From NCBI RefSeq assembly GCF_020405225.1, contig NZ_CP084472.1, positions 1,240,001-1,304,000 of the forward strand: a DNA stretch of 64,000 bases, given 5' to 3'. This document shows positions 41,875 to 56,305 of the stretch, piece after piece. Position 1 is the stretch's first letter, and each line of letters opens with the position of its first letter. Origin of the DNA: Natrinema sp. DC36 (lineage in GTDB: Archaea; Halobacteriota; Halobacteria; Halobacteriales; Natrialbaceae). The translations under genes and the position numbers were made by a program. The notes under the pieces were generated by a model, which did not search any database, was not told the DNA's origin, and was given only the letters and a program-made list of their open reading frames with translations.

Positions 41875-42198
41875 TCAACTCGACGTTCCATCTCCGCCCT
41901 CGGCGTCCTCGTGGGAGCGACCGACACCGAGTTCGTCGAACGTAGTGCGGTTCTCGTCGAGTTCCGGCCGATCGTACTGGCGTCGGCTCACGGCTGCATT
42001 CCGGCGGCTGGCGTCCCACTCCTCGAAGAGGCCGTACTCCGTCATCGTCTCCATACCGGCGATGGCCGCCGTGAGCTTGATCCCGACCAGCGGAATATCC
42101 GCGACGGAGACGATCACGTCCGCGCGGAGGATCGCACCGTCTCTGAGCAACACGTCGAGCACGTCGACGAGCGCATCGTCGTTCTTTTGCGGTCTCAT
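41875..42198 (-). CDS. gvpM: Gas vesicle protein GvpM
   Basis: A 107-residue GvpA-related minor protein. The A-type core is DALVDVLDVLLRDGAILRADVIV followed by SVADIPLVGIKLTAAIAGMETM, matching the two-strand, two-helix fold of the shell protein. The C-terminal 40 residues are polar and specific to GvpM. GvpM interacts with other accessory proteins in the nucleation complex; overproduced alone it aggregates. The start MRPQKNDD at 42198 overlaps the gvpL stop by 4 nt. It ends the minus-strand gvp operon. Confidence 0.9.
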   Translation of the reverse strand: MRPQKNDDALVDVLDVLLRDGAILRADVIVSVADIPLVGIKLTAAIAGMETMTEYGLFEEWDASRRNAAVSRRQYDRPELDENRTTFDELGVGRSHEDAEGGDGTSS

Positions 42199-43163
42199 GG
42201 CTGTGGATTCGCTCGCTCGTCCGCGGCGGTCCCGCCACCGCCGAGTTCCGGTGCGAACGTGTACGGCGGCCACGGTCCCGTGAACCTGACCTCGACTCCG
42301 TCGTTCGCCGCCACGTCGTCGAGTATCGAGCCGATGGCTCCCTCGTCGTCCTCGTGGGCCAGCACCGTGAGCCGACAGAGGGTTTCGCCGTCGCCGGACT
42401 CGTCCGATCCGCCGCTCGAGTCTCCGCCCGTTTCCGACTCGCTGTCGGTTATGTCGTTCGAGAGTTGCGCGCTCGGCGAGCGCTCGAGCGCGTGGACCTC
42501 CCGCGCTTTTGCGGCCAGTCGCTCCTCGAGGTCAGCGGTCAACGATTCCCGTCGCGCGGCTCGAATCTCCGTCAGTCGCTGGTCGAACTTTTTCTCGAGC
42601 AGGAACGCCGTTCCCTCCTCGGAGCCGTCGATCTGCTCGTCCAGTTCGCGCAGCCGTTCGTCGCGCTCGATCAGCGCCTCGTCGCTGATCGGATCGACTT
42701 CGACCACTTCGACGCGGTACTCCCAGTGGTCCGCCAGCCCGGAGAGGGCGCGCTCGAGCGTCTCGGACTCCTCCCGGAGCCACTCTCGGACGGCGGCGTC
42801 GTCGCCGCGCAGAATCGTGTCGAACTGGAACGGGATCGGCGTTCCGAAGGCCTGTCCCGCCTCGTCGACGACCGTCTGGTGGCGGACGAGCCAGCGGCGG
42901 ATCTGTGCGAGATCCGCCGAGTCGTAGATACTGTCGCACGCGTGGACGACGGCTCCGATTCCGTTTTCGACGACGATCGAGACCGGTTCGTCGTCGACGC
43001 CGGTCGTCTCGAGGGCGGCGTCCTCGTCGGCCCGCACGAGACAGTACAGGTAGCGTCCCTCGTCGAGAGCCGGTGTCTCGGCGTGCTCGCCGGCCGGCTG
43101 CTCGTCGAGCGCCTCGAGTCCCTCGGCGCCATCGTCACCGTCGTTCGTGCCGTCGGAGCTCAT
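42195..43163 (-). CDS. gvpL: Gas vesicle protein GvpL
   Basis: A 322-residue member of the GvpF/GvpL family. The first ferredoxin-like part starts [20 protein letters not shown], the central [19 protein letters not shown] and the helical [13 protein letters not shown] follow, and the end is [18 protein letters not shown], the family's C-terminal hallmark. It has two haloarchaeal additions: an acidic N-terminal tail of 35 residues and an acidic Ser/Gly linker (about residues 245-265). GvpL is the hub that binds several Gvp accessory proteins. It overlaps gvpK and gvpM by 4 nt on each side. Confidence 0.92.
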
Positions 43164-43504
43164 TCGCCCTCACCGCCGAACACGGAATACCCAGGTTTCT
43201 GCGTGGCGGTCGGCTCGCCGTGAAGTTGTTCGATCGCGTCGTTGACCAGCCCGTCCAGATTGCCCCGGAGATCGTCGACGCCGTCCTCGATCTCCTCGTC
43301 CGCTTTGAGCTGTTCGATCTCGGCCTCGATCGTTGCGAGCTGGCTCCCGAGGCGTTCGACCTCCTCGTCCGAGAGGTTCCCCGACTCCATGCGACGAACC
43401 GCTTCGCGCTCGAGGGCGTCGATTAGGATTTCAACAACGGTTATGACAAGGGTAACGAGCCCCTGTCGCGCGTCCTCGCCGTCGCCGACGTCGATCGAAG
43501 TCAT
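43160..43504 (-). CDS. gvpK: Gas vesicle protein GvpK
   Basis: A 114-residue protein with the GvpK core: [28 protein letters not shown] followed in two parts by the [23 protein letters not shown] helix. GvpK is an essential accessory protein of gas-vesicle assembly. The C-terminal [25 protein letters not shown] is also family-like. It overlaps gvpJ and gvpL by 4 nt. Confidence 0.92.
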
Positions 43505-44094
43505 GATCCGTCGCCCTCCGCTTCCGGGGCGGCCTCGTTCTCCGCTGACTCCTCGTCAGCCGACTCCGCTTCGTTCTCGCTCGAGTCCGTGTCAGACTCC
43601 GAGTCCGCGTCGGATTCCGACTCGTCACTGAGCAGGTCGAATCCGCCGCTGGTCGGTCTGTCGGGGTTCGGTCTGGCTCCGAGGCGTTCGCTCACTAGCT
43701 CGTCGTCGCTGCCGGCGGCGTCGCGCTCGCTCGCTTCGTCGGTTTCCGCGTCGCGCTCGGCGCTATCGGCAGTTGCGTCGCCGTCTTCGTCGGCGGTGAC
43801 GTTGACGCCTCGAGTCGGATCGATCACCGGATTCGGTCGGTCCATCTCCGCGAGTTCGGGGTCGCCGACCGCTTCGGCGACGCGGCGCATGTCCGTCCCC
43901 TCGGGGAACTCGAGGCCGTACTTCGCCGCGGTCTCGAAGGAGGCGATCGCGGCCCGGACCTGCACGCCGAGCAGCTGGGTATCGCCGATCGAGACGGCGA
44001 TATCGGCGTTGATGACGATTCCCTTGTCCAGGAGCATCTCGACGACTTCGGCCAGGTCGGCCTTCTGGCGGCTGGGCTGGAACTCATCGACCAT
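43501..44094 (-). CDS. gvpJ: Gas vesicle protein GvpJ with long acidic tail
   Basis: A 197-residue protein. Residues 1 to about 85 are a GvpA-like core ([25 protein letters not shown] then [22 protein letters not shown]). Residues about 95-197 are an acidic, Ser/Glu/Asp-rich, presumably disordered tail with repeats of [20 protein letters not shown] type. Usual GvpJ proteins have about 110 residues, so the tail is an addition of about 80. I chose the ATG at 44094: an SD-like GGGGGTGAT lies right before it, and a GTG three codons earlier lies inside that SD. The gap of 86 nt to the preceding gene breaks the otherwise overlapping operon. Confidence 0.9.
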
Positions 44095-44145
44095 TGCGAT
44101 CACCCCCAGCGGTGCGCAGGGTTGGACCGCAGTCAGTCGTCGAAC

Positions 44146-44184
44146 TCACCTCGCAGCCGGTCGATCGTCGGAGTGGTCGGTCAT
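44146..44184 (-). other. 12-codon mini-ORF coupled to the preceding stop
   Basis: ATG 44184-44182 overlaps the TGA of the 308-residue gene (ATGA) and encodes MTDHSDDRPAAR before TGA at 44146-44148. It sits in the only gap of the minus-strand gvp operon. It may be a relic of a lost gene, possibly gvpI, or chance. Confidence 0.35.
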
Positions 44185-45107
44185 TCATTGTCGTTCCTCC
44201 GCTGTCGTTCTTGTCTCCGCTGTCGTTCCCGCTCGAGTTCGAACCGACGGCCGTAGATCCGTTTCCGCGTCGGTGCGGTCGAGAGTTTGACCTCCTGTGG
44301 CACCGTCGAATACCGGGTGCCGCTGCCGAGGTCGAGCCGATCGGTCGAAATCGTCGACGCTGCCGTCGGATTTCGCGAGTTCGTACTCGTGTCCTGCCGG
44401 CGCATCTTCTCGCGGTTGAACTCGTAGAGCTTCTCGAACGTTTCGTGCGTTTCGAGCAGCGCCGACCGGAAGGCGTCGATGCCTTCCATCGCCTGCTGCT
44501 GGATGGCCGCCTGGTAGGCTTCGGGATCCTCCTGGATGTTGATGTCGCCGAGTGCCGCCGTCGCGGCCTCCGTTGAGTCCATGTCCGTCTCGAGGAGTTC
44601 CCCCTCCTCACCGAACAGGCGCTCGTCGCTGGCCACGATCTCCGAGACCGCTTTTTCGACCGTGCCGGCATCGGAACTGTCTTCCAACTCATCGAGGGCC
44701 TCGTCCAGTTCGCGTTTTTCCTCCCAGAGGCCAGTCAGGTCCGCGGCGTTCCAGGTTTCGAGCAGGTCGATCGCGTCGAACAACTCCCTGAAATCCACGA
44801 GTTCGGTCGCGTCCCTATCGTCGTCCGCCAGAATGGCGGGGAGTTCGTCGACATCGATCGCATCCAGGAGTTCCTCCTCCTTGACCGCCTCCGGCAGTTC
44901 GCTGAGGTCCATCTCCTCGAGCAGTTCGCCGACCTCCGTTGCGACTCGTGCGAGAGCGTCGAGATCACCGATTATCGAGTCGATGGCGTCGTCGTCGAGT
45001 TCGTCGATCGCGTCGGCATCGGCGAGGGTCTCGTCGAGACGCTGGAGGCTCTCGGTCGCATCCTCGAGAAGCACTTCGAACGCGTCCGCCGATTCGTCGT
45101 CGCTCAT
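44181..45107 (-). CDS. Unrecognised 308-aa protein in the gvpI position
   Basis: I do not recognise a family for this protein. Residues 1 to about 240 are very acidic and helical (MSDDESADAFEVLLEDATES, then repeated LDALARVATEVGELLEEMDL-like stretches); there is no membrane segment. Residues about 250-308 switch to basic: TRKRIYGRRFELERERQRRQ and then a further Arg/Gln-rich end. It lies between gvpH and gvpJ, exactly where haloarchaeal clusters carry gvpI, a short, Arg-rich protein. So it could be an enlarged GvpI with an acidic N-terminal domain, or an unrelated replacement. It overlaps gvpH by 4 nt, so it is translated with the cluster. Confidence 0.75.
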   Translation of the reverse strand: MSDDESADAFEVLLEDATESLQRLDETLADADAIDELDDDAIDSIIGDLDALARVATEVGELLEEMDLSELPEAVKEEELLDAIDVDELPAILADDDRDATELVDFRELFDAIDLLETWNAADLTGLWEEKRELDEALDELEDSSDAGTVEKAVSEIVASDERLFGEEGELLETDMDSTEAATAALGDINIQEDPEAYQAAIQQQAMEGIDAFRSALLETHETFEKLYEFNREKMRRQDTSTNSRNPTAASTISTDRLDLGSGTRYSTVPQEVKLSTAPTRKRIYGRRFELERERQRRQERQRRNDNE

Positions 45108-45700
45108 TCGTCACCCTCCATCGCTTCGCTATCCCCACCCGTCGCCGTCTCCGGTCTGATTTGGACCGTAAGCACTCCGTTCTTGATCGTCGCCCGGGAC
45201 TCCGTCTCAGGCCAGGGGATATCGACGCGATCGAGTTCGGATCCCTCGACGGCGATGACCAGCGTCGAGTCGTCGAAACCCACCGTCACGTCGTCCGGAT
45301 TGGCTCCGGCGATGTCCGCCGTGACGAGCAGTTCGTCCTCGTGCGTCCGGATCGCCACGTGGTGGTCGCTCGAGGGACCCGACGATCGGATACGGCGCGT
45401 CCGCGATCGATCGCTGTTCCGCCCTCGCGACCCCTCGTCGCCGAGCCGATCCCGATCGAGCGACAACTCGTCTGCGAGATCGTCGCCCGATCGGATCGAG
45501 ATGTCGTAATCGAAGATCGTTCGATCGCCGCGCCGGCGGCCCGAACGAGACGTCGGGCCGTCGTCGAGCGCTTCGAGAGCGGACAGCAGACTCGAGAGCC
45601 AGTGATCGTCCTCGTCGATCTGACTGTCGTCGGTCCGGTGCTCGTCGGATCGGTCGTCGGGCGATTCGTCGCGGTCGTCGTCCGGGGAACTGTCGCTCAT
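45104..45700 (-). CDS. gvpH: Gas vesicle protein GvpH (Hsp20-like)
   Basis: A 198-residue protein. The C-terminal half is an alpha-crystallin-like domain: HHVAIRTHEDELLVTADIAG, then ANPDDVTVGFDDSTLVIAVEG and the end ATIKNGVLTVQI (V-x-I type). The first 95 residues are acidic and Arg-rich (DDGPTSRSGRRRGDRTIFDYDISIRSGDD in parts) as in other GvpH proteins. It is thought to act as a chaperone for aggregation-prone Gvp proteins. It overlaps gvpG by 4 nt and the following gene by 4 nt. Confidence 0.87.
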   Translation of the reverse strand: MSDSSPDDDRDESPDDRSDEHRTDDSQIDEDDHWLSSLLSALEALDDGPTSRSGRRRGDRTIFDYDISIRSGDDLADELSLDRDRLGDEGSRGRNSDRSRTRRIRSSGPSSDHHVAIRTHEDELLVTADIAGANPDDVTVGFDDSTLVIAVEGSELDRVDIPWPETESRATIKNGVLTVQIRPETATGGDSEAMEGDE

Positions 45701-45951
45701 TTTTTCACCTCCACGCGGCCGCTCGAGAGCTGCTCGTGAACCTCGCGGGCGGTCTCGAGCTCCGCCTCGAGTTCTTCTTTGCGGCGCTGATACTCCGTTT
45801 CGGAGCGTTCGCCGAGTTCGTACAGGAGCTGGTTCTCTTTGAGTTCGGCCTCGAGACCCTCCACGTCGTACATCTCGTCGAGCGCGATCGTGTGGAGCGC
45901 GTCGACGATGCCGACGAGCGGCCGGAACAGGAGGTCGTCGAGGATGAACAT
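45697..45951 (-). CDS. gvpG: Gas vesicle protein GvpG
   Basis: An 84-residue helical protein. The N-terminus MFILDDLLFRPLVGIVDALHTIALDEMYD and the following LKENQLLYELGERSETEYQRRKEELEAELE coiled coil (given in parts) are the hallmarks of GvpG. It is one of the accessory proteins needed for nucleation of vesicles. It starts 2 nt after the gvpF stop and overlaps gvpH by 4 nt. Confidence 0.9.
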   Translation of the reverse strand: MFILDDLLFRPLVGIVDALHTIALDEMYDVEGLEAELKENQLLYELGERSETEYQRRKEELEAELETAREVHEQLSSGRVEVKK

Positions 45952-45953
45952 GG

Positions 45954-46577
45954 TTACTGTTTGGCTCCGATTTTCACGTCGACGAAGCTGTACGGTGCGA
46001 ACGGCCCCGTGTACTGGACCATGAGCTCGTCGTGGTCGTCCTCGAAGTCGGCGACCGCGTCGTCGAACGCCTCGCGTTCGTCCTCGTCGACGAGATACGA
46101 TCGGTTCAGCACGAGTCGGTCGCTGAACAGGTCGTTCTCGACGGACTGTGCGGCGATGGGCTCGAGGTGGTCGGCGACCGCCGCCTCGATCTCCTCGCGA
46201 TCGACGTCGGCGTCTTCCTCGCGGACGAGTTTGAGACCGAGTTCGATCTTGCCTTCGATGTCGTTCATCGCGCGTCGGAAGGCCGGTCGCGCCCCGCGAA
46301 GGACGTTCTTCAGCGCTCGATCGCTCTCGAATGCCATCCCGAACTGCATGGGCACGACGGTCGTTCCGCCGTCGTACGCCATGATCTCCCGGAGGACGTC
46401 GTCGTGGATCTGTGCGTCCTCGTCCGTCTCCTCGGGATCGGTCGTGTCGGTATCCGAGACGACGGCACCGAGTCGCCGGTGTGAGATCGTGTAGACGCGG
46501 TCAGCACCGGCGACCGCGTCAGTTTCGAATTCGACGGTATCCGACTCAACGACGCCGTAGACGTACCGGTTATTCAT
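45954..46577 (-). CDS. gvpF: Gas vesicle protein GvpF
   Basis: A 207-residue member of the GvpF/L family, first gene of the minus-strand operon. It starts MNNRYVYGVVESDTVEFETD, has the central VVPMQFGMAFESDRALKNVL block and a charged helical region, and ends LMVQYTGPFAPYSFVDVKI, the family's closing motif. GvpF contacts GvpA and is needed early in assembly. A TATA box 24-33 nt upstream (46601-46610) gives a leaderless start. Confidence 0.92.
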   Translation of the reverse strand: MNNRYVYGVVESDTVEFETDAVAGADRVYTISHRRLGAVVSDTDTTDPEETDEDAQIHDDVLREIMAYDGGTTVVPMQFGMAFESDRALKNVLRGARPAFRRAMNDIEGKIELGLKLVREEDADVDREEIEAAVADHLEPIAAQSVENDLFSDRLVLNRSYLVDEDEREAFDDAVADFEDDHDELMVQYTGPFAPYSFVDVKIGAKQ

Positions 46578-46600
46578 CGGTAGATCACTCGTTGACTGGT

Positions 46601-46610
46601 CATATTATTG
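46601..46610 (-). promoter_or_regulatory. TATA box of the gvpFGHJKLM operon
   Basis: CATATTATTG lies 24-33 nt before the gvpF ATG at 46577. Confidence 0.55.
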
Positions 46611-46831
46611 TCTCGTCGCTAACTCGAGCCCAGTCGTTGCCCGCGACGACCCTGTTGCCGAGACCGACGGGTTGAGAGGCGCGCGCGTAATCCGTCGGCT
46701 CGGTTGGTGATAGGACATCTGGATGACATGGGGGTGCGATAGCTGCGCTCCTCGCGGCCGCTGTGCGCGCCGTGTCGAGCACTCGAGTATCGTCACGAGT
46801 TGTTCGGTTCCGCTGCGGGTTATCGTAGTGC

Positions 46832-46843
46832 TTGCAGCTGCAA
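46832..46843. promoter_or_regulatory. Palindrome upstream of gvpA (TTGCAGCTGCAA)
   Basis: A perfect 12-bp palindrome about 145 nt before gvpA. Its TTGCA/TGCAA halves recur in the inverted repeat nearer the gene, so both may bind the same dimeric regulator. Confidence 0.45.
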
Positions 46844-46931
46844 CCCGCGGTATCACGCCGGAAAAAGGCGACACCGACGGCTGATAGTACCGGGAGTCAC
46901 GACAGTGAGAGAGCGCCACGGGATAGGGTGA

Positions 46932-46950
46932 CTTGCAGTCGCAGTGCAAG
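46932..46950. promoter_or_regulatory. Inverted repeat in the gvpA promoter
   Basis: CTTGCA and TGCAAG flank 7 nt (GTCGCAG). It lies 36-54 nt before the gvpA ATG, where it would overlap the promoter or transcription start. Confidence 0.45.
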
Positions 46951-46985
46951 CCGAGTTAGGAGACGCCGCTCAAACGGAAGGTGTT

Positions 46986-47264
46986 ATGTCCCAACGAACA
47001 CCCGATTCATCGAGTCTGGCAGAAGTACTCGACCGCGTCCTCGACAAGGGCGTCGTCATCGACGTCTGGGCTCGCATCTCCGTTGTCGGGATCGAGTTAC
47101 TGACGATCGAAGCCCGCGTCGTGGTCGCCTCGGTCGACACCTTCCTGCACTATGCGGAGGAGATCGCAAAAATTGAGCAAGCCACGGCGGAGGGCGATCT
47201 CGAAGACCTCGAGGAGGTCGAGGTCGAGCCCCGCCCCGAATCGACGCCGAAATCGGCGGAGTAA
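46986..47264 (+). CDS. gvpA: Gas vesicle major structural protein GvpA
   Basis: A 92-residue shell protein. Residues 8-64 match the highly conserved GvpA core: [20 protein letters not shown], then [20 protein letters not shown] and [17 protein letters not shown]. It builds the ribs of the hollow vesicle. The C-terminal tail is acidic and about 16 residues longer than the 76-residue haloarchaeal GvpA I know. I chose the ATG at 46986 because of the preceding SD-like GGAAGGTG and the family start. gvpN follows after 6 nt; no gvpC lies between. Confidence 0.95.
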
Positions 47265-47270
47265 CTCCCC

Positions 47271-48305
47271 ATGGCCGACGACACTTCGCGCAAGCGTACG
47301 GTCCGTGGCAGGAAGATCACGGCCAGCCGCGAGCAGAAGGACGGTCGCAGAGCGAAGAAAGAGCTCGCGCGAACGGCATCGAACGCAGGTGAACGAAACG
47401 GCGACAGTCCCCTCTCCGATCCCGAGACGGTCGTCCCCGACCCGTTCGTCGAGACCGACGCGGTCAGATCGCTGCGCGATCGGATCGACGGCTGGCTCGA
47501 GGCGGACCAGCCGGTTCACCTGATCGGACCGACGGGCTGTGGCAAGACGGCGCTCGCGCTGTCGGCCGCGGCAGAGCGCGGCCGGCCGGTCGTCTGGCTC
47601 AACGGCGACGAAGCGGTCGACACCGCTGCACTCGTCGGCTCCCACGCCGGCGGCGAGCGCTACGAGGAGAACGATCAGTTCGTCAGCGGCGTCAGCAAGA
47701 AGACGGAGATCGTTCGCGAACGCTGGGTGGACAACCCGCTGTCCGTCGCGGTGCGAGAGGGCGCGACGCTCGTCTACAACGAGTTCTCGCGCAGCGACCC
47801 CGCCGCTCACAACGTCCTGCTCTCGGTCTTCGAGGAGGGCGTCCTCGAGCGGCCGGGCAAACACGGCGACGATCGAACGATCGACGTCCACCCCGAGTTC
47901 CGGGCGATCCTCACGTCCAACGACGTGGAGTACGCCGGCGTCCACGAACAGCAGGACGCGCTTCTCGATCGGTTCGTCGGCGTCCACATCGACTACTACG
48001 ACGACGAGACCGAGCGAGAGATCGTCGCCGCCCACGTCGACCTCTCCGACGACGAGATCGCGACGATCGTCGACACGACGCGGGCGCTTCGCGACGAACT
48101 CGAGATCGTCGTCGGCACGCGCGCGGCGATCACGGCAGCGAAGGGGTTGACCGTCTTCGACGGCCACGCCGAGACCGACGAGGACGGCGAGTTCGACGAC
48201 GAGACGCTGGCGGACGTCTTCACGGACGTCCTCGCGCCCAAGCTGGTCGGCGAGAACGACGCCGGCATCGACGACCTGCGATCGCGGATCACCGAGACGA
48301 TCTGA
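47271..48305 (+). CDS. gvpN: Gas vesicle ATPase GvpN
   Basis: A 344-residue AAA-type (MoxR-like) ATPase. After a basic N-terminal tail of about 60 residues, the Walker A is GPTGCGKT at 86-93; LVYNEFSRSDPAAHNVLLSV and the sensor-like AILTSNDVEYAGVHEQQDAL follow. GvpN is required for vesicles to enlarge to full width, working with GvpC where present. Here gvpC is missing, so GvpN must act without it. The N-terminal tail rich in Arg and Lys is unusual in this acidic proteome. Confidence 0.93.
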   Translation: MADDTSRKRTVRGRKITASREQKDGRRAKKELARTASNAGERNGDSPLSDPETVVPDPFVETDAVRSLRDRIDGWLEADQPVHLIGPTGCGKTALALSAAAERGRPVVWLNGDEAVDTAALVGSHAGGERYEENDQFVSGVSKKTEIVRERWVDNPLSVAVREGATLVYNEFSRSDPAAHNVLLSVFEEGVLERPGKHGDDRTIDVHPEFRAILTSNDVEYAGVHEQQDALLDRFVGVHIDYYDDETEREIVAAHVDLSDDEIATIVDTTRALRDELEIVVGTRAAITAAKGLTVFDGHAETDEDGEFDDETLADVFTDVLAPKLVGENDAGIDDLRSRITETI

Positions 48306-48361
48306 TCCACCGCGGAGGCGATCGGACCGATCCGAACGAACGACAGACCAAACCCAGACCA

Positions 48362-48916
48362 ATGGCCGAAGCCGACACGCAATCACGGGAGCAGTGCAAG
48401 GCCCTCACCACGGACGGCGAGCGCTGCTCACGGCCGGCGCAGGACGACGGCTTCTGCTTCCAACACGACGAGAGTGATCAAACAGTGAGCGACAGTCAGA
48501 CAGCCCAAGAGGAAGAACAGGCCGACCAAACGGACGACACGGCCGAGAGCGGCGACGTCGAGCAGCCCAACTCTCGCGGGACGACCGACATGACCGCGGA
48601 GGAGAAGACCAATCCCGAGGAGGTCGACGAGGATGCCGACGTCGAACAGGAGGAGATCGCGGGCATCCTCCCGATCCGAAACACCGTGCAGTCGACCGCC
48701 GGGCAACTCATCGGCCACGAGTTCGACGGCGTCAGCGAGATTTCGCCGACCGACGACGGCTGGCGCGCGGTCGTCGAGGTCGTCGAGCGCCGAGCCGTCC
48801 CGGACACCCAGGATATCATCGGCCGCTACGAGATCGAACTCGACAGCGACGCCACCGTTCACGGCTACCGACGCCTCGACCGCTACCGCCGCGGCGATAC
48901 CACCGAGTTCGAGTAA
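48362..48916 (+). CDS. gvpO: Gas vesicle protein GvpO with N-terminal Cys/His motif
   Basis: A 184-residue protein. The C-terminal 90 residues (from EEIAGILPIRNTVQSTAGQL to the RRLDRYRRGD end) are GvpO. Before it lies an acidic linker (about residues 36-95) and an N-terminal motif with Cys12, Cys22, Cys32 and His35 (C-x9-C-x9-C-x2-H; CKALTTDGERCSRPAQDDGF then CFQH), resembling small zinc fingers seen in phage and haloarchaeal proteins. Usual GvpO proteins lack such a module as far as I know. It follows gvpN by 56 nt and is followed by a strong hairpin. Confidence 0.88.
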   Translation: MAEADTQSREQCKALTTDGERCSRPAQDDGFCFQHDESDQTVSDSQTAQEEEQADQTDDTAESGDVEQPNSRGTTDMTAEEKTNPEEVDEDADVEQEEIAGILPIRNTVQSTAGQLIGHEFDGVSEISPTDDGWRAVVEVVERRAVPDTQDIIGRYEIELDSDATVHGYRRLDRYRRGDTTEFE

Positions 48917-49346: not shown

Positions 49347-49619
49347 TTACGTGACTTGGACGAACTCCGCGGCGCCGCTCTGCTCGACGGTAATGCGATA
49401 GCCGCTGTACGTGAATTCGACCGTTATCTGTGCCTCTGGCGACGGCGGATTCGAATACAACTCCGATATCATCCCGTCGATGCAGTTGTAGGTCGGTGTC
49501 AATTCGTCTGCTTGCTTTCCCTCAAGGTCAGCGATAACTTCCGCTACCGCCACAGCCGGCTCCTCTCTGTCAGTGTCCAATTCCCGGTGAACGATTTCGT
49601 CGTTGTGGCTTTCTGTCAT
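49347..49619 (-). CDS. HalOD1 output domain protein (90 aa)
   Basis: A 90-residue stand-alone HalOD1 domain: VAVAEVIADLEGKQADELTP, then YNCIDGMISELYSNPPS and ITVEFTYSGYRITVEQSG. HalOD1 is a haloarchaeal domain seen alone or after receiver and PAS domains and thought to be a signalling output; its molecular action is unknown. The ATG at 49619 gives the family start; the frame runs on upstream into the next gene. It lies 55 nt downstream of a DUF7344-type regulator gene. Confidence 0.8.
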   Translation of the reverse strand: MTESHNDEIVHRELDTDREEPAVAVAEVIADLEGKQADELTPTYNCIDGMISELYSNPPSPEAQITVEFTYSGYRITVEQSGAAEFVQVT

Positions 49620-49674
49620 AGTATCTCTATAGTTCGGCGTTGTGGACGGAATGAATGTGGGCGAGGCACTGTTC

Positions 49675-50028
49675 TCACTCGCCCGCGACGGGCGGTGCAT
49701 AGCCGTCGATATGTGCCGCTTGGTCGATGAACTGGCCGCCCCTATTTATGCCGTCGAGTTCAATCGATTGCCTCTCCTGGGCGAACGTGATGAGGCCAGC
49801 ATCGGCGAGTTTCGGAAGGTGCATATGACGAAGTTGTACCTCAATGGTAGCACTACTGGTCCGACTCTCCTCAGGTTGGCCAGCGTCCCAGTTGGCGAGT
49901 GAAGACGCTAGCGTGTCGAAGTCCACGGTTTCGGACTCTCGGGTCAGGTGATACAAGACGTAGCGCCGGTACGGATGCCGCAACAGGTCAAACATCTCGT
50001 TCATTCCTGATTGAGTTTGTTCTGCCAT
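49675..50028 (-). CDS. DUF7344-type winged-helix protein (117 aa)
   Basis: A 117-residue protein. FDLLRHPYRRYVLYHLTRES starts the winged-helix domain, and the later IEVQLRHMHLPKLADAGLITF is the recognition/wing part. The pattern RHPYRRYVLYHL...HLPKLADAGLI is that of the haloarchaeal DUF7344 family, often next to HalOD1 genes. It may regulate the adjoining HalOD1 gene. There is an in-frame GTG or ATG one codon earlier (50031). Confidence 0.75.
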   Translation of the reverse strand: MAEQTQSGMNEMFDLLRHPYRRYVLYHLTRESETVDFDTLASSLANWDAGQPEESRTSSATIEVQLRHMHLPKLADAGLITFAQERQSIELDGINRGGQFIDQAAHIDGYAPPVAGE

Positions 50029-50204
50029 CACCCATCGTCTGGGCCGGACCGCCTTAGTCTCTTTTTTGCGATAATTTTACCTATTTGATAATACAACCAA
50101 GAGCGGCTATTTACTTGACTTTCCCAAGCACGATAGAGGAGACAGCCGGGCCGAATCCAGTATGAGTTCGGGACTCCGGCAATTGCTATCCTTCCCGCCG
50201 GTGG

Positions 50205-50720
50205 CTACTCCTCGGACGAACCGATTTCCTCGGGCGCATCGGCATCCTCTCCGGCGAACTCCTGATGGAAGTGATTCCACGGTTGGATGTGTTCTTCTGC
50301 CAGAATGTTGCTACTCACGATTCGCAGGCCGAGGTCGTCTAACTGGTTGGTACTCTCCTCGATCTCGGAGGTCGATTCGGCGACGACCTCGACGTGGAGG
50401 TTCTCCTCGCCGGACAGCATCTCCCGGACGTTGACGACACCCCGAACTTCTAAGGTATTCTCCGCCATCTCCGACCGGCGGGAGAGGTCCGTCGAGCAGA
50501 TGAACAACACTTGCATCGGATACCCCGCCTGTTCGTAGTCAAGTTCCGGATTGTAGCCGGTGATGATTCCCTTCTCCTTCAGTTGCTTGATTCGGTTGTG
50601 GATGGTTGTTCCAGTTACGTCCGTTTCCTCCGCAATGTCCGTGTCGGAGGCCTCGCGGGCGTCCACCTGCAACAGGTGTAGAATGCGGCGGTCGAGGTTG
50701 TCGAGTGGGTCATCGTTCAT
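50205..50720 (-). CDS. Lrp/AsnC family transcriptional regulator
   Basis: A 171-residue regulator. The helix-turn-helix is LDRRILHLLQVDAREASDTD, then IAEETDVTGTTIHNRIKQL and the wing GIITGYNPELDYEQAGYP. The RAM-like domain follows (about residues 65-145; VRGVVNVREMLSGEENLHVEV). The C-terminal 25 residues are acidic. It stands alone; its target and effector are not evident. Confidence 0.85.
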   Translation of the reverse strand: MNDDPLDNLDRRILHLLQVDAREASDTDIAEETDVTGTTIHNRIKQLKEKGIITGYNPELDYEQAGYPMQVLFICSTDLSRRSEMAENTLEVRGVVNVREMLSGEENLHVEVVAESTSEIEESTNQLDDLGLRIVSSNILAEEHIQPWNHFHQEFAGEDADAPEEIGSSEE

Positions 50721-50811
50721 GACGGTCTATTCGGTGCCAAGTCAGTTGAGTTGGTCGCCCAGACTGGACGCGCGTGGAGTCTTCTCCTCTGTACTGAACG
50801 GCTGTGCATAC

Positions 50812-51003
50812 TTACGTATCGTCGTCAGGTTCCTCAACCGTGAGTTTATGCCCAGTTTCCCGCCCGTGTTCAATAATCACCTCAGACGATTTGTTCCCTT
50901 CCTTCGTTACCAGCTTTGAGAAGTTACACACAGTACACACAATATGGACTTTCTGTGGGATTTGCACGGCTTCGTCTGTCGCGATCTCTTTTTGCTTGGT
51001 CAT
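50812..51003 (-). CDS. Small C2H2-like zinc-binding protein (63 aa)
   Basis: A 63-residue protein with Cys23, Cys26, His46 and His52 (C-x2-C-x19-H-x5-H) ending in GRETGHKLTVEE. It is the same type as the protein at 5281-5475. The reading frame continues upstream but MTKQKEIATD at 51003 is the first start that gives a sequence with normal composition. The function is unknown. Confidence 0.6.
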   Translation of the reverse strand: MTKQKEIATDEAVQIPQKVHIVCTVCNFSKLVTKEGNKSSEVIIEHGRETGHKLTVEEPDDDT

Positions 51004-51482
51004 CTCTGCAAACCATGTGGAGAAACAGCGAGTGGCCGGCGACACGCCGTCAGCGATCCGTTCACTGCTTAACTCTCTGTGTCCTTGGATACGTGGAAGA
51101 CGTATAAGGGCCTCCTTCACCCATATCCTCACACTTCCGAACGACCACTGGTTATTCTATCATCGATACTGACCTGCGGGGCACTTCGAGAATTCTTTTG
51201 CCTGTACTGACCGCTCGGTCATAATCTACTCTCTCTCTCCTAAGCGGACTCGACAACACTCGTTATCGAGGTTCCATCCTCCCCTACTACCGGAGCAGCA
51301 CCGTTGTACCGTCTCGAATCGGCCAACTGTGACTTTTCGCGAGCGCGGCGCGCAGAGCGCGCACCGCGCAATTGCCCCGCCTCCGTAGGGGCACTACCGT
51401 TTCAGACGAACTTCTCCTCGAGGCCAAATTACAATCCCATCCAACCACAACACCGAAGCATCCTCTAGCCGTCGAGCCACTC
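51004..51482. other. Intergenic, 479 nt
   Basis: No gene supported. It contains a GC-rich palindromic stretch about 51340-51370 (GCGCGGCGCGCAGAGCGCGC) and otherwise lower-GC sequence. Confidence 0.5.
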
Positions 51483-51833
51483 GTGCAATCGATCGGAGGC
51501 CACACCGTCCACGGCGTCGACGTCGGTCCGGAAACTCGGTGTGCCCACTACGACACAGACCGCGACGTGATCGCGTTCGAATTCGCCTGCTGCGAGCGCT
51601 ACTATCCCTGTTTTTGCTGCCACGAGGAAACGACGGACCACGAGGCCGTGCCGTGGCCTCGAGCCCGATTCGACGAGCCGTCCGTGCTGTGTGGCTGCTG
51701 CGGGAGCGAACTCACCGTCCCCGGCTATCTCGCGACCGACTACAGCTGTCCGGCCTGCGACGCTCCCTTTAATCCCGGCTGTGCAAAGCACGCGTCACTG
51801 TACTTCGAGACGGCGGATTCGGATCTCGAGTGA
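51483..51833 (+). CDS. CHY-type zinc-finger protein
   Basis: A protein of about 116 residues with the complete CHY zinc-finger signature: RCAHYDTDRDVIAFEFACC, then YYPCFCCHEETTDHEAVPWP, and further pairs CGCCGSEL and CPACDAPFNPGC. Such domains bind three zinc ions and occur in ubiquitin ligases of eukaryotes and as stand-alone proteins in microbes; the archaeal role is unknown. The start is uncertain: I used GTG 51483, because the upstream frame (to 51372) looks non-coding. Confidence 0.8.
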   Translation: MQSIGGHTVHGVDVGPETRCAHYDTDRDVIAFEFACCERYYPCFCCHEETTDHEAVPWPRARFDEPSVLCGCCGSELTVPGYLATDYSCPACDAPFNPGCAKHASLYFETADSDLE

Positions 51834-51876: not shown

Positions 51877-53193
51877 TCAGTCGTCGGCCGGAATCGCTCG
51901 CGAGTCGGTTTCGGCGGCCCGCTCGTCGGCCAGCGCCGCTTCGACCCGCGGCGGTAGTTCGTTGACCATCGAGCGACCGTCTTTCTCGCGCACGACGAGT
52001 CCGTCGTCCTCGAGCGCGGCGAGGTGATGGGACACCGTGCTCGGGTCGCGCTCGAGCGCGTCTGCCAGCCGGCCGTTGGGCGCGCGCCCGAACTCGGCGA
52101 TCGTCTCGAGCACCTCCCGCTTCGCGGGTTCCGCGAGGGCGGCCAGGAGTTCGGCGTCGTCGCCCTCGAGGAAGTAGCGGCGCTTGCCGTTGACCTTGCG
52201 TGCGGTCACCAGCCCCTCATCCTCGAGGATTCGGACGTGATGGCGAACCGTCGAGAGGGGCACCTCGGTCCGGTCGCTGACCTCCGAGAGGTACGCGCCG
52301 GGTTGCTTCCGAACCGTCTCGTAGATTGCCGCACGGCAGTCGTGCTCGAGCGGGTCCGAATCGTCGTAGCGGCTGTACCGGAAGATCGGTAGGGCCTTCC
52401 AGAGGTCCGCAGCTGCTCGTCGGAGCCGGTCCGTCTCTCGGAGATGACGGAGCCAGCTGGCGGTCGCCGTGCTCGCGCCCCCGGCGGCCCCCGATGCGCC
52501 GGCTCCGCCGGCTCCGCCCGCTGCGACACCGGATGCGGAGATCGCACCCAGCATCCCGACGAGGATCGCGTTCGTGGCCGCTTCGCTCGTGCTCGGCGGA
52601 TCGACGGGAGCGGCGGCACCGCCGATCGCTTGCTCGAGCCGTCCGCCGATTCCGGCTACAGTGCCATTGGTAGTCTCAGCCGTTTCGCCGACGGTCTCGT
52701 TGATGGCCCCCGTCGCCTCGCTGACGGTCTCATTGACGGTTGCCGTCGTGTTGGTGACCGTCTCGTTGGCAATCGTCGTCGTGTTATTGACGGTTTCCGT
52801 CGTGTTCGAGACGGTGTCGGTGACCGTCTCCGTCGTCTCTGTGGTCGTGTTTTCTATGGCGTCAGCCGGGTCGGTTGTCGTATTCTCGAGGCCGTCGGTC
52901 GTGTTCTCCGTGTCGTCAGTCGTGTTTTCGGTGTTAGTTTCGAGGCTCTCAGTCGTACTCTCGAGCTCCTCGCTGGTGTTCTCGGTCGAATTCGTCGTTC
53001 CGTCGTCGGTCGTTTCGAGCGAGTCCGTCGACGCCGTCACGACCGAGCCGCCGCTCGCCGCTCCGGCGACGGCACCCGTGACCGAGCCGCCGCTCGCCGC
53101 TCCGGCGACGGCACCCGTGACCGCGCCGCCGAGGAACACGGCGGCGACGAGACACGCGAAGATGCGGACCCCGACCGACGGATCCGACTCCAT
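51877..53193 (-). CDS. Membrane-anchored double winged-helix regulator with Thr/Asn-rich domain
   Basis: A 438-residue protein. Residues 5-40 include a hydrophobic, signal-like helix (VRIFACLVAAVFLGGAVTGA) and a perfect 13-residue duplication (GSVTGAVAGAASG). Residues about 50-190 are Thr/Asn/Glu-rich with dozens of N-x-T/S sequons, suitable for N-glycosylation outside the cell. A second hydrophobic stretch follows (ATNAILVGMLGAISASGVAA, Gly/Ala-rich). The C-terminal 190 residues carry two winged helices: CRAAIYETVRKQPGAYLSEV... with STVRHHVRILEDEGLV, and AKREVLETIAEF... with STVSHHLAALEDDGLV. It looks like a one-component regulator tied to the membrane. Its signal and targets are unknown. 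Confidence 0.8.
   Translation of the reverse strand: MESDPSVGVRIFACLVAAVFLGGAVTGAVAGAASGGSVTGAVAGAASGGSVVTASTDSLETTDDGTTNSTENTSEELESTTESLETNTENTTDDTENTTDGLENTTTDPADAIENTTTETTETVTDTVSNTTETVNNTTTIANETVTNTTATVNETVSEATGAINETVGETAETTNGTVAGIGGRLEQAIGGAAAPVDPPSTSEAATNAILVGMLGAISASGVAAGGAGGAGASGAAGGASTATASWLRHLRETDRLRRAAADLWKALPIFRYSRYDDSDPLEHDCRAAIYETVRKQPGAYLSEVSDRTEVPLSTVRHHVRILEDEGLVTARKVNGKRRYFLEGDDAELLAALAEPAKREVLETIAEFGRAPNGRLADALERDPSTVSHHLAALEDDGLVVREKDGRSMVNELPPRVEAALADERAAETDSRAIPADD
53041..53118. repeat. 39-bp perfect tandem duplication
   Basis: Two identical 39-nt units (53041-53079 and 53080-53118) encode the duplicated GSVTGAVAGAASG segment of the regulator gene. Perfect identity points to a recent event. 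Confidence 0.9.
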
Positions 53194-53560
53194 AGCTGTT
53201 GTGCACCTATGAGCGATGGATCGTAATACCTTTTCCCGTTTCGTGACAGTCACGTGATCCGATAGCTATCGTCGCCACTGATAGTCGCTGCGCACCCGAT
53301 CGCAGGATAGTAGCGCGGTCTAGAGCAATGCGCGGTTCGGAGCGAGCGCGGTTCGGAGCGAACGTAGTGAGCGAGAACCGCGGGGATGCGAACGGTGAGC
53401 GAAGCGAGCCGTGAGCGAACGTAGTGAGCGAGAACCGCGATCGAGAACTACGGACTGTCCGATCGGTGTGTCAATCGCTTCAGTTGTTACGAGCGGCTCT
53501 CGAGCCCGAAACGCGGCCGATCCAGCAAGGTATTTCAGCGTCGGGCGGCCGAATTCACGT
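53194..53560. other. Intergenic, 367 nt, with clustered repeats before mutS
   Basis: It holds a 16-bp tandem repeat and a separate 27-bp direct repeat (see those entries). There is no TATA box in clear position before mutS and no supported gene. Confidence 0.55.
53330..53439. repeat. Cluster of short direct and inverted repeats
   Basis: GCGCGGTTCGGAGCGA occurs in tandem at 53330-53345 and 53346-53361. A 27-nt direct repeat containing AACGTAGTGAGCGAGAACC occurs at 53356-53382 and 53413-53439. CGCGGTTC (53347-53354) can pair with GAACCGCG (53375-53382). Motifs of this sort (GAGCGAACGTAGTGAGCGA) are scattered in haloarchaeal genomes. Confidence 0.7.
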
Positions 53561-56305
53561 ATGGATCCGGCGCTTGGCCCTCCCGAGGAGATGGCCGAGA
53601 TACGCGACGAGCTGACGCCGATGATGCGCCAGTATCACGATCTCTGCGCGCGCTACGACGACGCGATCGTCCTCTTTCAGGTCGGGGACTTCTACGAGAC
53701 GTTCTGCGGCGCGGCCGAACGGACGGCGCGCCTCCTCGAGATCGCGCTGACCAGCCGGGAGGACAACACCGGCGAGTACCCGATGTCTGGTATTCCGATC
53801 GACAACGCCGAGTCGTACATCGAGGAGTTGCTGGAGGCCGGCTATCGGGTCGCGGTGGCCGATCAGGTCGAGGAACCCGGCGAGACGTCGGGCGTCGTCG
53901 AACGCGCAGTGACGCGCGTTATCACGCCCGGGACGCTCACCGAGGACGAACTGCTCGCCAGTGACGACAACAACTTCGTGGCCGCGGTGGCTCGCGGCGA
54001 CGCAGCCGCCGGCGAAGACCGCGAACTCGCGCTGGCGTTACTCGACGTCTCGACGGGTGACTTCCTCGCCACGAGTTCCACCTCGAGGGAGTCGATCGTC
54101 GACGAGGTGAGTCGGTTCGATCCCGCGGAGGCCGTCGTCGGCCCGGACGCGCCCGCCGATCTCGTTCCCGACGATTGTATGGTCACGCCGTACGACGTGA
54201 GCGCGTTCGACCGCCAGCGGGCGGGCGAAAAACTCTCCGCGTACTTCCGCAATCCCGATGCGCTGCTCGCGAGCGACGCCGAGATTCGGGCCTGCGGCGC
54301 AGTACTCGCCTACGCGGAGTACGTCCGCGGCGGTACACACGTCGGCGAACGCGGTGAAGCGGACGACGAGACCGAGGACGATTCTGGAGCTGCGGACGGT
54401 ATCGAGAGTGACGACGCACACCTCGAGTACCTCACTCACCTCACGCGGTACGATCCGCGGGAGTACCTGCTGCTCGACGCCGTCGCCCTGCGAAGTCTCG
54501 AGCTGTTCGAACCCCGCGCCGTTCACGGGCGGGACGAGGCGACGCTGGTCGGCGTGCTCGACGACACCGCTAGCGCGCTCGGCGGCCGAAAGCTCAGGGA
54601 CTGGCTCCGGCGGCCGCTGCTCGAGCCCGACCGGATCGAGGCGCGGCTGGACGCCGTGGAGGAACTCACGAGCGCGGTTCAGACGCGCGAGCGGCTGCAC
54701 GACCGGCTGCGGTCGGTCTACGATCTCGAGCGGCTGATCGGACGGATCTCCCGCGAGCGAGCGAATGCGCGGGACCTGCGCTCGCTGCGGGATACCCTCG
54801 CCGTCGTTCCCGACGTTCGCGAGGAGCTCGCCGACGCGGACTGCGAGCGACTAGAACGGCTCCACGAGGCCCTCGATCCGCTGGCCGATGTCCGCGAGCT
54901 GGTCGAGGACGCGATCGTCTCGGACCCACCGATCGAGATCACCGAGGGCGACATCATCGCGGAGGGGTACGACGACGATCTGGACGACCTGCGCGGGACC
55001 GCCCGCGACGGCAAACGGTGGATCGACGACCTCGAGGAGCGCGAACGGGAGCGGACCGGGATCGACTCGCTGAAAGTCGGCTACAACTCGGTCCACGGCT
55101 ACTACATCGAGGTGACGAACCCGAACCTCGAGTCGGTGCCCGACGACTACCAGCGCCGCCAGACCCTCAAGAACTCCGAGCGCTTCGTCACGCCGGAGCT
55201 CAAGGAGCGCGAGGATCAGATCGTCGGCGCTGAGGAGCGGGCGGACGAACGCGAGTACGAACTGTTCTGCGAGGTCCGCCGGGAAATCGCCGACGAGGTC
55301 GAACGCGTCCAGAACCTCGCCGAGGCGCTCGCGACGCTGGACGCGCTCGTCTCACTCTCGAGCGCCGCGGCCCAGTACGACTACTGCCGGCCGGCGATCC
55401 TCGAGCGCGACGGGAGTCAGACCCTCGAGATCGAGGGGGGTCGCCATCCCGTCGTCGAGCGGACGCAGGAGTCGTTCGTCCCGAACGACGCCCGATTCGC
55501 GCGCGATCGGCGGCTGGCAGTGATCACGGGGCCGAACATGTCCGGCAAGTCGACCTACATGCGGCAGGTCGCCCAGATCGTCCTGCTGGCGCAGGTCGGA
55601 AGCTTCGTGCCCGCCAGCGCGGCCCGAATCACGCCGGTCGATCGGATTTTCACCCGCGTCGGAGCCAGCGACGACATCGCGGGCGGCCGCTCGACGTTTA
55701 TGGTCGAGATGGACGAACTCGCGACGATCCTGCAGGAGGCCGACGAACACTCGCTCGTCCTCCTGGACGAAGTCGGACGGGGGACCTCGACGGCCGACGG
55801 GATGGCCATCGCCCAGGCGATCACCGAACACCTCCACGACGCGGTCGGCGCGACGACGCTCTTCGCGACGCACCACCACCCGCTGACCGAACTCGCGGAC
55901 GACCTCGAGGCCGCGTTCACGCTGCACTTCGAGGTCGAGCAGGTCGACGGCGAGGTCGTCTTCCACCACGAAATCGCGCCCGGCGCGGCGACGGGCTCGT
56001 ACGGCGTCGAGGTCGCGACCGCGGCCGGCGTCCCCGACTCCGTCGTCGACCGCGCGCGGGGCCTGGTCGCGGACGAAGCGGACGATGCCCTCGAGACGGA
56101 GAGTGACGACAGGCCGACCGCTCGTGATTCGAACGAGGATGCGGTGCCCGAAGCAACCAGAATTGCAGAATCGGCAGCTACCACGGACGGAGGAGACGTG
56201 CCGACCGACGTGGCCGCAGAACTCCGCGCGCTCGATCTCGCCCACCTCACCCCCGTCGAGGCGCTGACGGAACTCGACCGGCTGAAACGGCTTCTCGAGG
56301 AGTGA
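53561..56305 (+). CDS. mutS: DNA mismatch repair protein MutS
   Basis: A 914-residue MutS1. The mismatch-binding motif is in [12 protein letters not shown] (Phe-x-Glu type, about residue 40). The connector, lever ([20 protein letters not shown]) and clamp follow; the ATPase has Walker [10 protein letters not shown] at 657-665, Walker [17 protein letters not shown] and the [13 protein letters not shown] motif. Acidic insertions occur near residues 265-290 and 840-885. It recognises base mismatches and starts repair with MutL, which is not in the window. The frame is open upstream, but the family begins at ATG 53561. Confidence 0.94.

Follow-up and report, generated by a model that had tools for sequence, protein, structure and literature searches.

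The putative regulator gene and its protein

The window analysed here, a stretch of 64,000 nucleotides from the 5.1 Mb genome of Natrinema sp. DC36, carries on its minus strand an open reading frame (51877-53193, with the ATG at 53193) that encodes a protein of 438 amino acids. A previous sequence-only reading of this DNA had predicted a chain composed of a signal helix, a Thr/Asn-rich stretch, a second helix and two winged helices, and this architecture was confirmed in the 438-residue frame. The features of the locus are the following:

51877..53193, minus strand: whole regulator gene, 438 aa (open reading frame translation and relatives)
53107..53163, minus strand: signal-like hydrophobic N-terminal helix, residues 11-29 (Kyte-Doolittle hydropathy 2.32)
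53046..53123, minus strand: 39-bp tandem duplication, perfect and in frame, with one copy at 53085-53123 and the other at 53046-53084 (repeat comparison)
52600..53037, minus strand: Thr/Asn/Glu-rich low-complexity region, most likely exported, residues 53-198, 14 sequons (composition and sequon tests)
52510..52581, minus strand: predicted second membrane helix, Gly/Ala-rich, residues ~205-228 (Kyte-Doolittle 1.70 and flank charges)
52378..52473, minus strand: positively charged, Arg-rich juxtamembrane helix, residues 241-272 (AlphaFold2 model and charge count)
52345..52377, minus strand: near-invariant YSRYDDSDPLE motif, residues 273-283 (alignments)
52168..52353, minus strand: winged helix 1, residues 281-342 (profile matches and AlphaFold2)
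51958..52155, minus strand: winged helix 2, residues 347-412 (profile matches, AlphaFold2 and Foldseek)
51880..51897, minus strand: C-terminal AIPADD, the Asp C-terminus being a family hallmark (comparison of C-termini)
53238..53253, minus strand: palindrome GTGACTGTCACGAAAC, conserved and located ~60 nt ahead of the ATG, a candidate operator (upstream alignments)
41875..48916, strand not specified: gas-vesicle cluster that lacks gvpD and converges on the regulator (profiles and inspection by eye)
53561..56305, plus strand: mutS, divergent neighbour of the regulator (profile match)

In the AlphaFold2 model, the N-terminal helix was placed at residues 7-32 and the second helix at residues 202-224, both with low confidence. 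The 39-bp duplication noticed beside the first helix is indeed perfect, tandem and in frame; the repeated peptide, VTGAVAGAASGGS, overlaps the end of the signal helix, and the duplication was absent in all eight relatives whose N-termini were compared. The stretch that separates the regulator from mutS contains two copies of a short repeat, gagcgaacgtagtgagcgagaaccgcg (window positions 53320-53450).

A family found in haloarchaeal genomes

The search for the same architecture that the sequence-only reading had proposed recovered a family present at 74 places in 59 of the 292 halobacterial genomes. With a profile built from the cytoplasmic part, matches at E <= 1e-20 were obtained in 104 of the 292 genomes of the class. 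Family places scored above 140 bits in 73 of the 74 cases, the remaining one (G186) being one gene in two pieces of 134 and 112 bits, and a lower-scoring group at ~75-111 bits consisted mostly of frames of 170-200 amino acids of the soluble, HVO_0163-like type. The HVO_0163 family (PF24266, which the window protein matches with 46.1 bits against a cut-off of 31) and the double winged-helix frames of 174 amino acids found in Halobacteria are the next relatives. Frames of 170-200 amino acids are too short to accommodate a signal helix and an ectodomain, and the few low-scoring ones that were inspected lacked the YSRYDD motif. A pattern search retrieved 37 relatives in named genomes, all of them haloarchaeal according to their record titles, and the plasmid-borne relatives bear generic helix-turn-helix names where annotated (four of six records). 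Searches of the open-licence PMC literature brought up no paper on this architecture, and the family is apparently undescribed so far. In the family tree, from which five rows were left out, the rows closest to the window protein are Haloterrigena sp. H1 and its genus-mates, within Natrialbaceae.

Two hallmarks define the family. The alignments show that the YSRYDDSDPLE motif, located directly before winged helix 1, is near-invariant; some divergent members keep the anchor and not the exact motif. The second is a C-terminal Asp, usually as -AD or -ADD, in 71 of the 78 members classed as anchored and nine of the 15 classed as signal-only, compared with none of four soluble paralogues and nine of 172 unrelated neighbour proteins. 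In this count the classes were set by eye, the anchored class by exclusion and without proof of its second helix; the signal-only class includes L116 and L121, and two members were left out (L036, truncated, and L085, with an internal stop). The four soluble paralogues (L111, L112, L122 and L123) have none of three features: the membrane part, the full motif and the C-terminal Asp. They belong to a single Natrialbaceae genus and fall inside the Natrialbaceae branch (support 100/88), and therefore the loss of the anchor, the full motif and the C-terminal Asp looks secondary. Two members, L025 and L026, encode an identical protein on two contigs of Natronomonas gomsonensis YCN60, which could reflect an assembly overlap or a true duplicate.

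Selection for sequons in the low-complexity region

Residues 53-198 (146 amino acids) contain 32% Thr, 14% Glu, 10% Asn, 5% Ser and 1% Pro. Fourteen of the 15 Asn residues stand in N-x-S/T sequons, compared with 5.5 +/- 1.7 in shuffled sequences. The bias extends to the family. Once seven near-duplicates had been left out of 64 ectodomains, the remaining 57 contained 533 Asn, and Ser or Thr was observed at position +2 in 391 cases versus the 155 expected from each protein's own composition, an enrichment of 2.52x (3.04x for Thr and 1.67x for Ser). Absent from these ectodomain counts are 22 of 99 members without an assigned N-terminal start (long, truncated or without a frame) and L070, which was lost for having no anchor pattern. 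None of the offsets -4, -3, -2, -1, +1, +3 and +4 was enriched in the 57 ectodomains (ratios of 0.78 to 1.00). When each of the 496 distinct nine-residue contexts was counted once, the +2 ratio was 2.46x, and a hand-picked, spread-out set of 25 members gave 2.53x, so that repeats and near-copies are not the cause of the peak. Forward sequons outnumbered reversed ones in 51 of the 57 members, with the opposite in two and a tie in four.

Control sequences help to interpret this enrichment. At +2, the ratio was 0.51x in the winged-helix part of the family, 1.11x in cytoplasmic neighbours (MutS, Gvp proteins and others) and 2.0x in putatively secreted neighbours. The S8 subtilases, which are export-like in appearance, gave 0.72x, and thus missing sequons do not prove a cytoplasmic location. 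Single-offset peaks have to be read with caution in conserved sequence, where chance peaks reached 2.2x at -3 and 1.7x at -4 in the cytoplasmic controls and the winged-helix part reached 1.85x at +3. Because the ectodomains are hypervariable, their peak is unlikely to come from fixed columns; within the close group of the window protein (n=9), identity fell from 0.74 in the winged-helix part to 0.68 over helix 2 and the juxtamembrane segment and to 0.45 over the ectodomain. The confinement of the peak to +2 is attributed to selection for N-x-S/T, since composition, repeats or low complexity would lift other offsets too.

The sequence-only reading had placed the Thr/Asn region outside the cell and had named a cytoplasmic location as the finding that would count against it. 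The sequon-specific enrichment across the family, seen together with its controls, agrees with the outside placement, and its restriction to +2 speaks against a cytoplasmic location. An alternative explanation is that the stretch is a cytoplasmic low-complexity filler whose sequons arose from composition or repeat expansion. The region is certainly repetitive and Thr-rich; however, positions -2, +1 and +3 share its composition and are not enriched, forward sequons prevail over reversed ones, and the ratio persists in unique contexts. This explanation is extremely improbable and strongly disfavoured. The source genome encodes an STT3-type oligosaccharyltransferase, and judging from sequence the Thr/Asn region is most likely exported and N-glycosylated.

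The term mucin-like, used previously for this region, fits loosely. A mucin-like domain is rich in Pro, Thr and Ser and O-glycosylated, and the window region is Thr-rich; but its Ser and Pro contents are 5% and 1%, the selected feature is the N-sequon, and its hydrophobic residues recur, as in a helix, with a period of 3.65, a signal that 300 shuffles never equalled in strength. Owing to this period, a Thr/acid helix or rod bearing N-glycans is as plausible as a mucin-like coil. Helical periodicity was not retained as a family-wide rule: 26 of 64 ectodomains had it in the helical band at p<0.05, the members being related so that the p-values do not stand for independent events, and repeat expansion could be the cause. 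Where both the signal helix and the motif were assigned (33 of the 37 named relatives), they are separated by 62 to 566 residues, the shortest stretches belonging to relatives without a clear second helix. Such variable length argues against a conserved folded ligand-binding sensor, and a folded ligand pocket in the ectodomain is unlikely.

The second helix and the orientation in the membrane

The charges that flank helix 2 bear on the orientation of the protein. The 40 residues before it have an average net charge of -7.2 and the segment after it of +4.1; among the 60 members counted (members shorter than 400 aa and L024, L036, L088 and L098 were left out), the net charge is positive after helix 2 in 59 and before it in none. 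Hydropathy was discarded as proof of a second membrane helix. The family median for helix 2 is 1.65 on the Kyte-Doolittle scale, and the best windows of 14 soluble MutS proteins from these loci average 1.59, with a maximum of 1.79, so that hydropathy alone is no proof. Thirteen members have a signal helix and no clear second helix, with one sequon among 11 Asn, and therefore the two-helix topology should not be taken as general among the members. These members (L032, L035, L037, L107, L110, L117-L120 and L124-L127) are short and have winged helices; L116 and L121 resemble them, with no signal helix assigned.

The marginal hydropathy of helix 2, the existence of members with a signal helix only and the absence of sequon enrichment in the export-like subtilases would also suit a different topology, with helix 2 not spanning the membrane, the entire chain exported and the winged helices outside. 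This topology is very improbable given the sharp charge switch across helix 2 in nearly all members counted, the existence of paralogues without any signal helix and the conservation of the DNA-binding helices. The positive charge after helix 2, together with the lack of +2 enrichment in the winged-helix part, sustains the earlier claim that the winged helices lie inside.

A probable cytoplasmic part with two winged helices

Pfam profiles, among them HTH_20 and HTH_5, matched the cytoplasmic part above their curated cut-offs in two stretches, and the NCBIfam profile HTH_metalloreg (NF033788) matched with 82.8 bits (cut-off 55). AlphaFold2 modelling of residues 196-438 with 32 sequences gave a mean pLDDT of 82; most of the two winged helices exceeded 90, the juxtamembrane helix comprised 32 residues and the membrane helix had low confidence. 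The full-length model had a mean pLDDT of 56 and was poor outside the winged helices. Foldseek comparison with the PDB retrieved mainly repressors of the ArsR/SmtB type; these results corroborate the ArsR-like folds proposed beforehand. The winged-helix match is shared with the ArsR/SmtB metalloregulators, whereas their metal-binding cysteines are not present in the window protein. The cytoplasmic part has one Cys (HDCRAAIYE), which is not conserved in the alignment, and thus nothing points to a metal sensor.

Winged helices can also bind proteins, and the Foldseek matches include the tandem winged helices of ScpAB and ESCRT-II at an rmsd of ~10-16 A. The protein might then serve to anchor DNA at the membrane or to scaffold protein-protein contacts, tethering the chromosome or a partner and exerting no transcription control. 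In the alignments, however, the expected recognition-helix positions are invariant or nearly so in both winged helices, and the single-domain matches are mainly to ArsR-type repressors, which makes a pure anchor or scaffold quite improbable in comparison with a transcription regulator.

A conserved palindrome upstream of the gene

Upstream of many Natrialbaceae members, the palindrome GTGACTGTCACGA is kept beside a conserved A-rich and TATTA block, and the sequence farther upstream aligns poorly. The site TGACNGTCA was found within one mismatch in 21 of 77 upstream regions, eight of them exact, against ~4 and none, respectively, in shuffled sequences; 12 of the 21 sites are located at -56 to -60 from the ATG. 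A candidate DNA target for residues 273-438 is GTGACTGTCAC. The exact 15-mer occurs once in the 5.1 Mb genome, with six sites at one mismatch, and for this reason the palindrome was discarded as a genome-wide regulon motif. It was not found in the gas-vesicle region of the window. This distribution suggests that the palindrome may serve autoregulation or be the site of another factor, and it does not point to the gvp promoters. An upstream hairpin considered as DNA structure was not notable (z -0.92).

Linkage to gas-vesicle genes

In the gas-vesicle cluster of the window, Pfam identified A, F, G, J and O, together with N as an AAA ATPase and H as HSP20, and K, L and M were assigned by eye. 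The gap between gvpO and the regulator (window positions 49347-51833) contains HalOD1, DUF7344, an Lrp-type regulator and a CHY zinc finger; the gap is shorter in many linked relatives. Two regulators known from other clusters, GvpD and GvpE, are likewise encoded with gas-vesicle genes. GvpD (PF07088) had no match in the source genome; it matched in nine of the 292 genomes, and the regulator is present in none of these nine, although chance alone would place only ~1.8 of them among the 59 regulator-bearing genomes. Available sections of published work describe clusters from which GvpD and GvpE are absent (PMC4390858, PMC3403918), which occur in Natrinema, Natrialba and others and whose expression is presented as an open question (PMC4390858).

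The family could be imagined as the dedicated regulator of gas-vesicle clusters without gvpD and gvpE. The regulator lies less than 5 kb from gvpO at 26 of the 74 places and is convergent with it in all 26; a second family (f8) shows the linkage too, with mutS missing from the 18-19 kb fetched; and GvpD and the regulator do not coincide in any genome, small as the chance expectation is. Against this, gvpO had no match in 16 of the 59 genomes with the regulator and lies elsewhere in a further 17. Further, 29 Natrialbaceae genomes have gvpO and not the regulator, and in 14 of the 20 that were fetched mutS stays near gvpO, inside the 9-12 kb fetched beside it. The gas-vesicle linkage is in part inherited old synteny. 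This, together with the failure to find the palindrome in the gvp region, weakened a gas-vesicle regulator as the main claim, and a dedicated role of this kind is rather doubtful.

Subtilase neighbours and a possible proteolytic release

S8 subtilase genes directly adjoin ten of ~100 members in loci whose flanks are unequal (1.5 to 4 kb or more). The subtilase lies on the regulator's strand and upstream of it in L016, L020, L022, L122, L123, L148 and L149, and it is divergent in L018, L114 and L115; an eleventh, in L070, is cut off at the end of the locus. Neighbouring subtilases with starts at hand have Tat-like signals by eye. The nine genomes examined contain three to 11 S8 matches each, from which we estimate a chance of ~1% for an S8 gene within 3 kb. 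On the family tree, the S8 label (eight rows, L057 and L058, which are the same genes as L148 and L149, being labelled gvp there) requires five changes, at least four of them forced by well-supported branches. The S8 profile detected no subtilase in 20 control flanks, nor in the loci of the mutS-linked relatives of the window gene. L122 and L123 lie between the subtilase and an M14 carboxypeptidase-type gene, and in L148 and L149, both of family f8, the regulator is preceded by two consecutive same-strand subtilase genes and has the gas-vesicle cluster on its other side. In the accessible text of PMC6085418, the regulatory proteins that control the secreted subtilases of haloarchaea are an open question.

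These neighbourhoods suggest a mechanism, on balance fairly unlikely, in which a secreted subtilase would cut the exported region, an intramembrane protease (site-2 or rhomboid) would then cut helix 2 and free the tandem winged helix, and the C-terminal (A)DD would possibly limit its lifetime. The frequency of subtilase neighbours, ten of ~100 against ~1% by chance, speaks for it, as do the repeated change of the S8 label on the tree, the clean control flanks, the site-2-type M50 peptidases encoded in the source genome and the Gly-rich character of helix 2. It has to be set against these points that the S8 profile detected no subtilase near the mutS-linked relatives of the window gene, that two of the ten subtilase-linked members (L122 and L123) are paralogues without a membrane part, and that each genome has several S8 families in addition to the unequal flanks. 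Proteolytic release is a strong form of the explanation preferred here, a membrane-bound regulator. Its fullest version, a sensor of surface proteolysis in which subtilases trim the brush, an intramembrane protease releases the tandem winged helix, the C-terminal -AD or -ADD sets its lifetime, and secreted proteases or gas vesicles are controlled according to lineage, is unlikely.

A probable transmembrane one-component regulator

The protein is probably a one-component transcription regulator that spans the membrane, with a brush outside that is unfolded and glycosylated and two winged helices inside. This explanation is supported computationally by the architecture, the exported and sequon-selected ectodomain, the flank charges, the family hallmarks and the gene neighbourhoods; DNA binding, the signal and the targets are what we infer. 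Its weak points are the marginal hydrophobicity of helix 2 and its low AlphaFold2 confidence, the 13 one-helix members, a palindrome that is unique in the genome and was not found in the gas-vesicle region, and a gas-vesicle linkage that is partly inherited. The N-terminal helix would export the Thr/Asn-rich stretch, which, once N-glycosylated, may form a flexible or rod-like brush between the membrane and the S-layer. The Gly/Ala-rich helix 2 would cross the membrane back, and the positive juxtamembrane helix with the YSRYDDSDPLE segment would couple it to the tandem winged helices, predicted to bind DNA in the cytoplasm. A change at the surface (cleavage by a secreted protease, altered glycosylation, or the state of the S-layer or salt) might act on the brush, and the signal transmitted through helix 2 would alter how the protein binds DNA, whether it stays in the membrane or is released. 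The regulator would likely act on its own promoter and, in some lineages, on the neighbouring gas-vesicle or secreted-protease genes.

Transmembrane transcription regulators (TTRs) have been reported in 367 of 404 archaeal species (Demey et al., 2023; PMC10269533), and they combine a DNA-binding domain and a transmembrane region in one chain, as the window protein appears to do. Its DNA-binding part consists of two winged helices above the Pfam and NCBIfam cut-offs with a confident fold. The candidates for a membrane span are the N-terminal helix (2.32), possibly cleaved, and helix 2, marginal by hydropathy and backed by sequons outside and positive charge inside. The survey, as far as its text is available, names neither a glycosylated low-complexity ectodomain nor a tandem winged helix of this type, and its main text contains no word beginning with 'halo' (PMC10269533). 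The window regulator is best explained as a new architecture that would fit within the broad TTR class. ArnR and ArnR1 of Sulfolobus acidocaldarius are, according to the available part of PMC6396743, archaeal membrane-bound one-component regulators of surface structures with one N-terminal HTH, HAMP-like and sensor domains and two C-terminal transmembrane segments, an order of parts reversed with respect to the window protein.

The analysis illustrates that the export of a low-complexity region can be deduced from sequence alone, through sequon enrichment at a single offset. In eukaryotes, SREBP, ATF6 and Nrf1 are membrane-bound factors with lumenal domains, that of Nrf1 including an Asn/Ser/Thr-rich glycodomain. 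The parallel is only functional, a membrane-bound factor with an exported part, since their DNA-binding domains are unrelated to those of the window protein. If the surface-proteolysis reading were true, the family would be an archaeal counterpart of the SREBP/site-1 protease and Nrf1 glycodomain systems, in logic and not in ancestry. In the parts of the literature available, the control of gas-vesicle clusters without gvpDE, which this family adjoins, is an open question in print (PMC4390858), and the control of secreted haloarchaeal subtilases is a second one that bears on the family (PMC6085418). Because the family adjoins both kinds of genes, it offers a concrete, deletable candidate for both questions of regulation.
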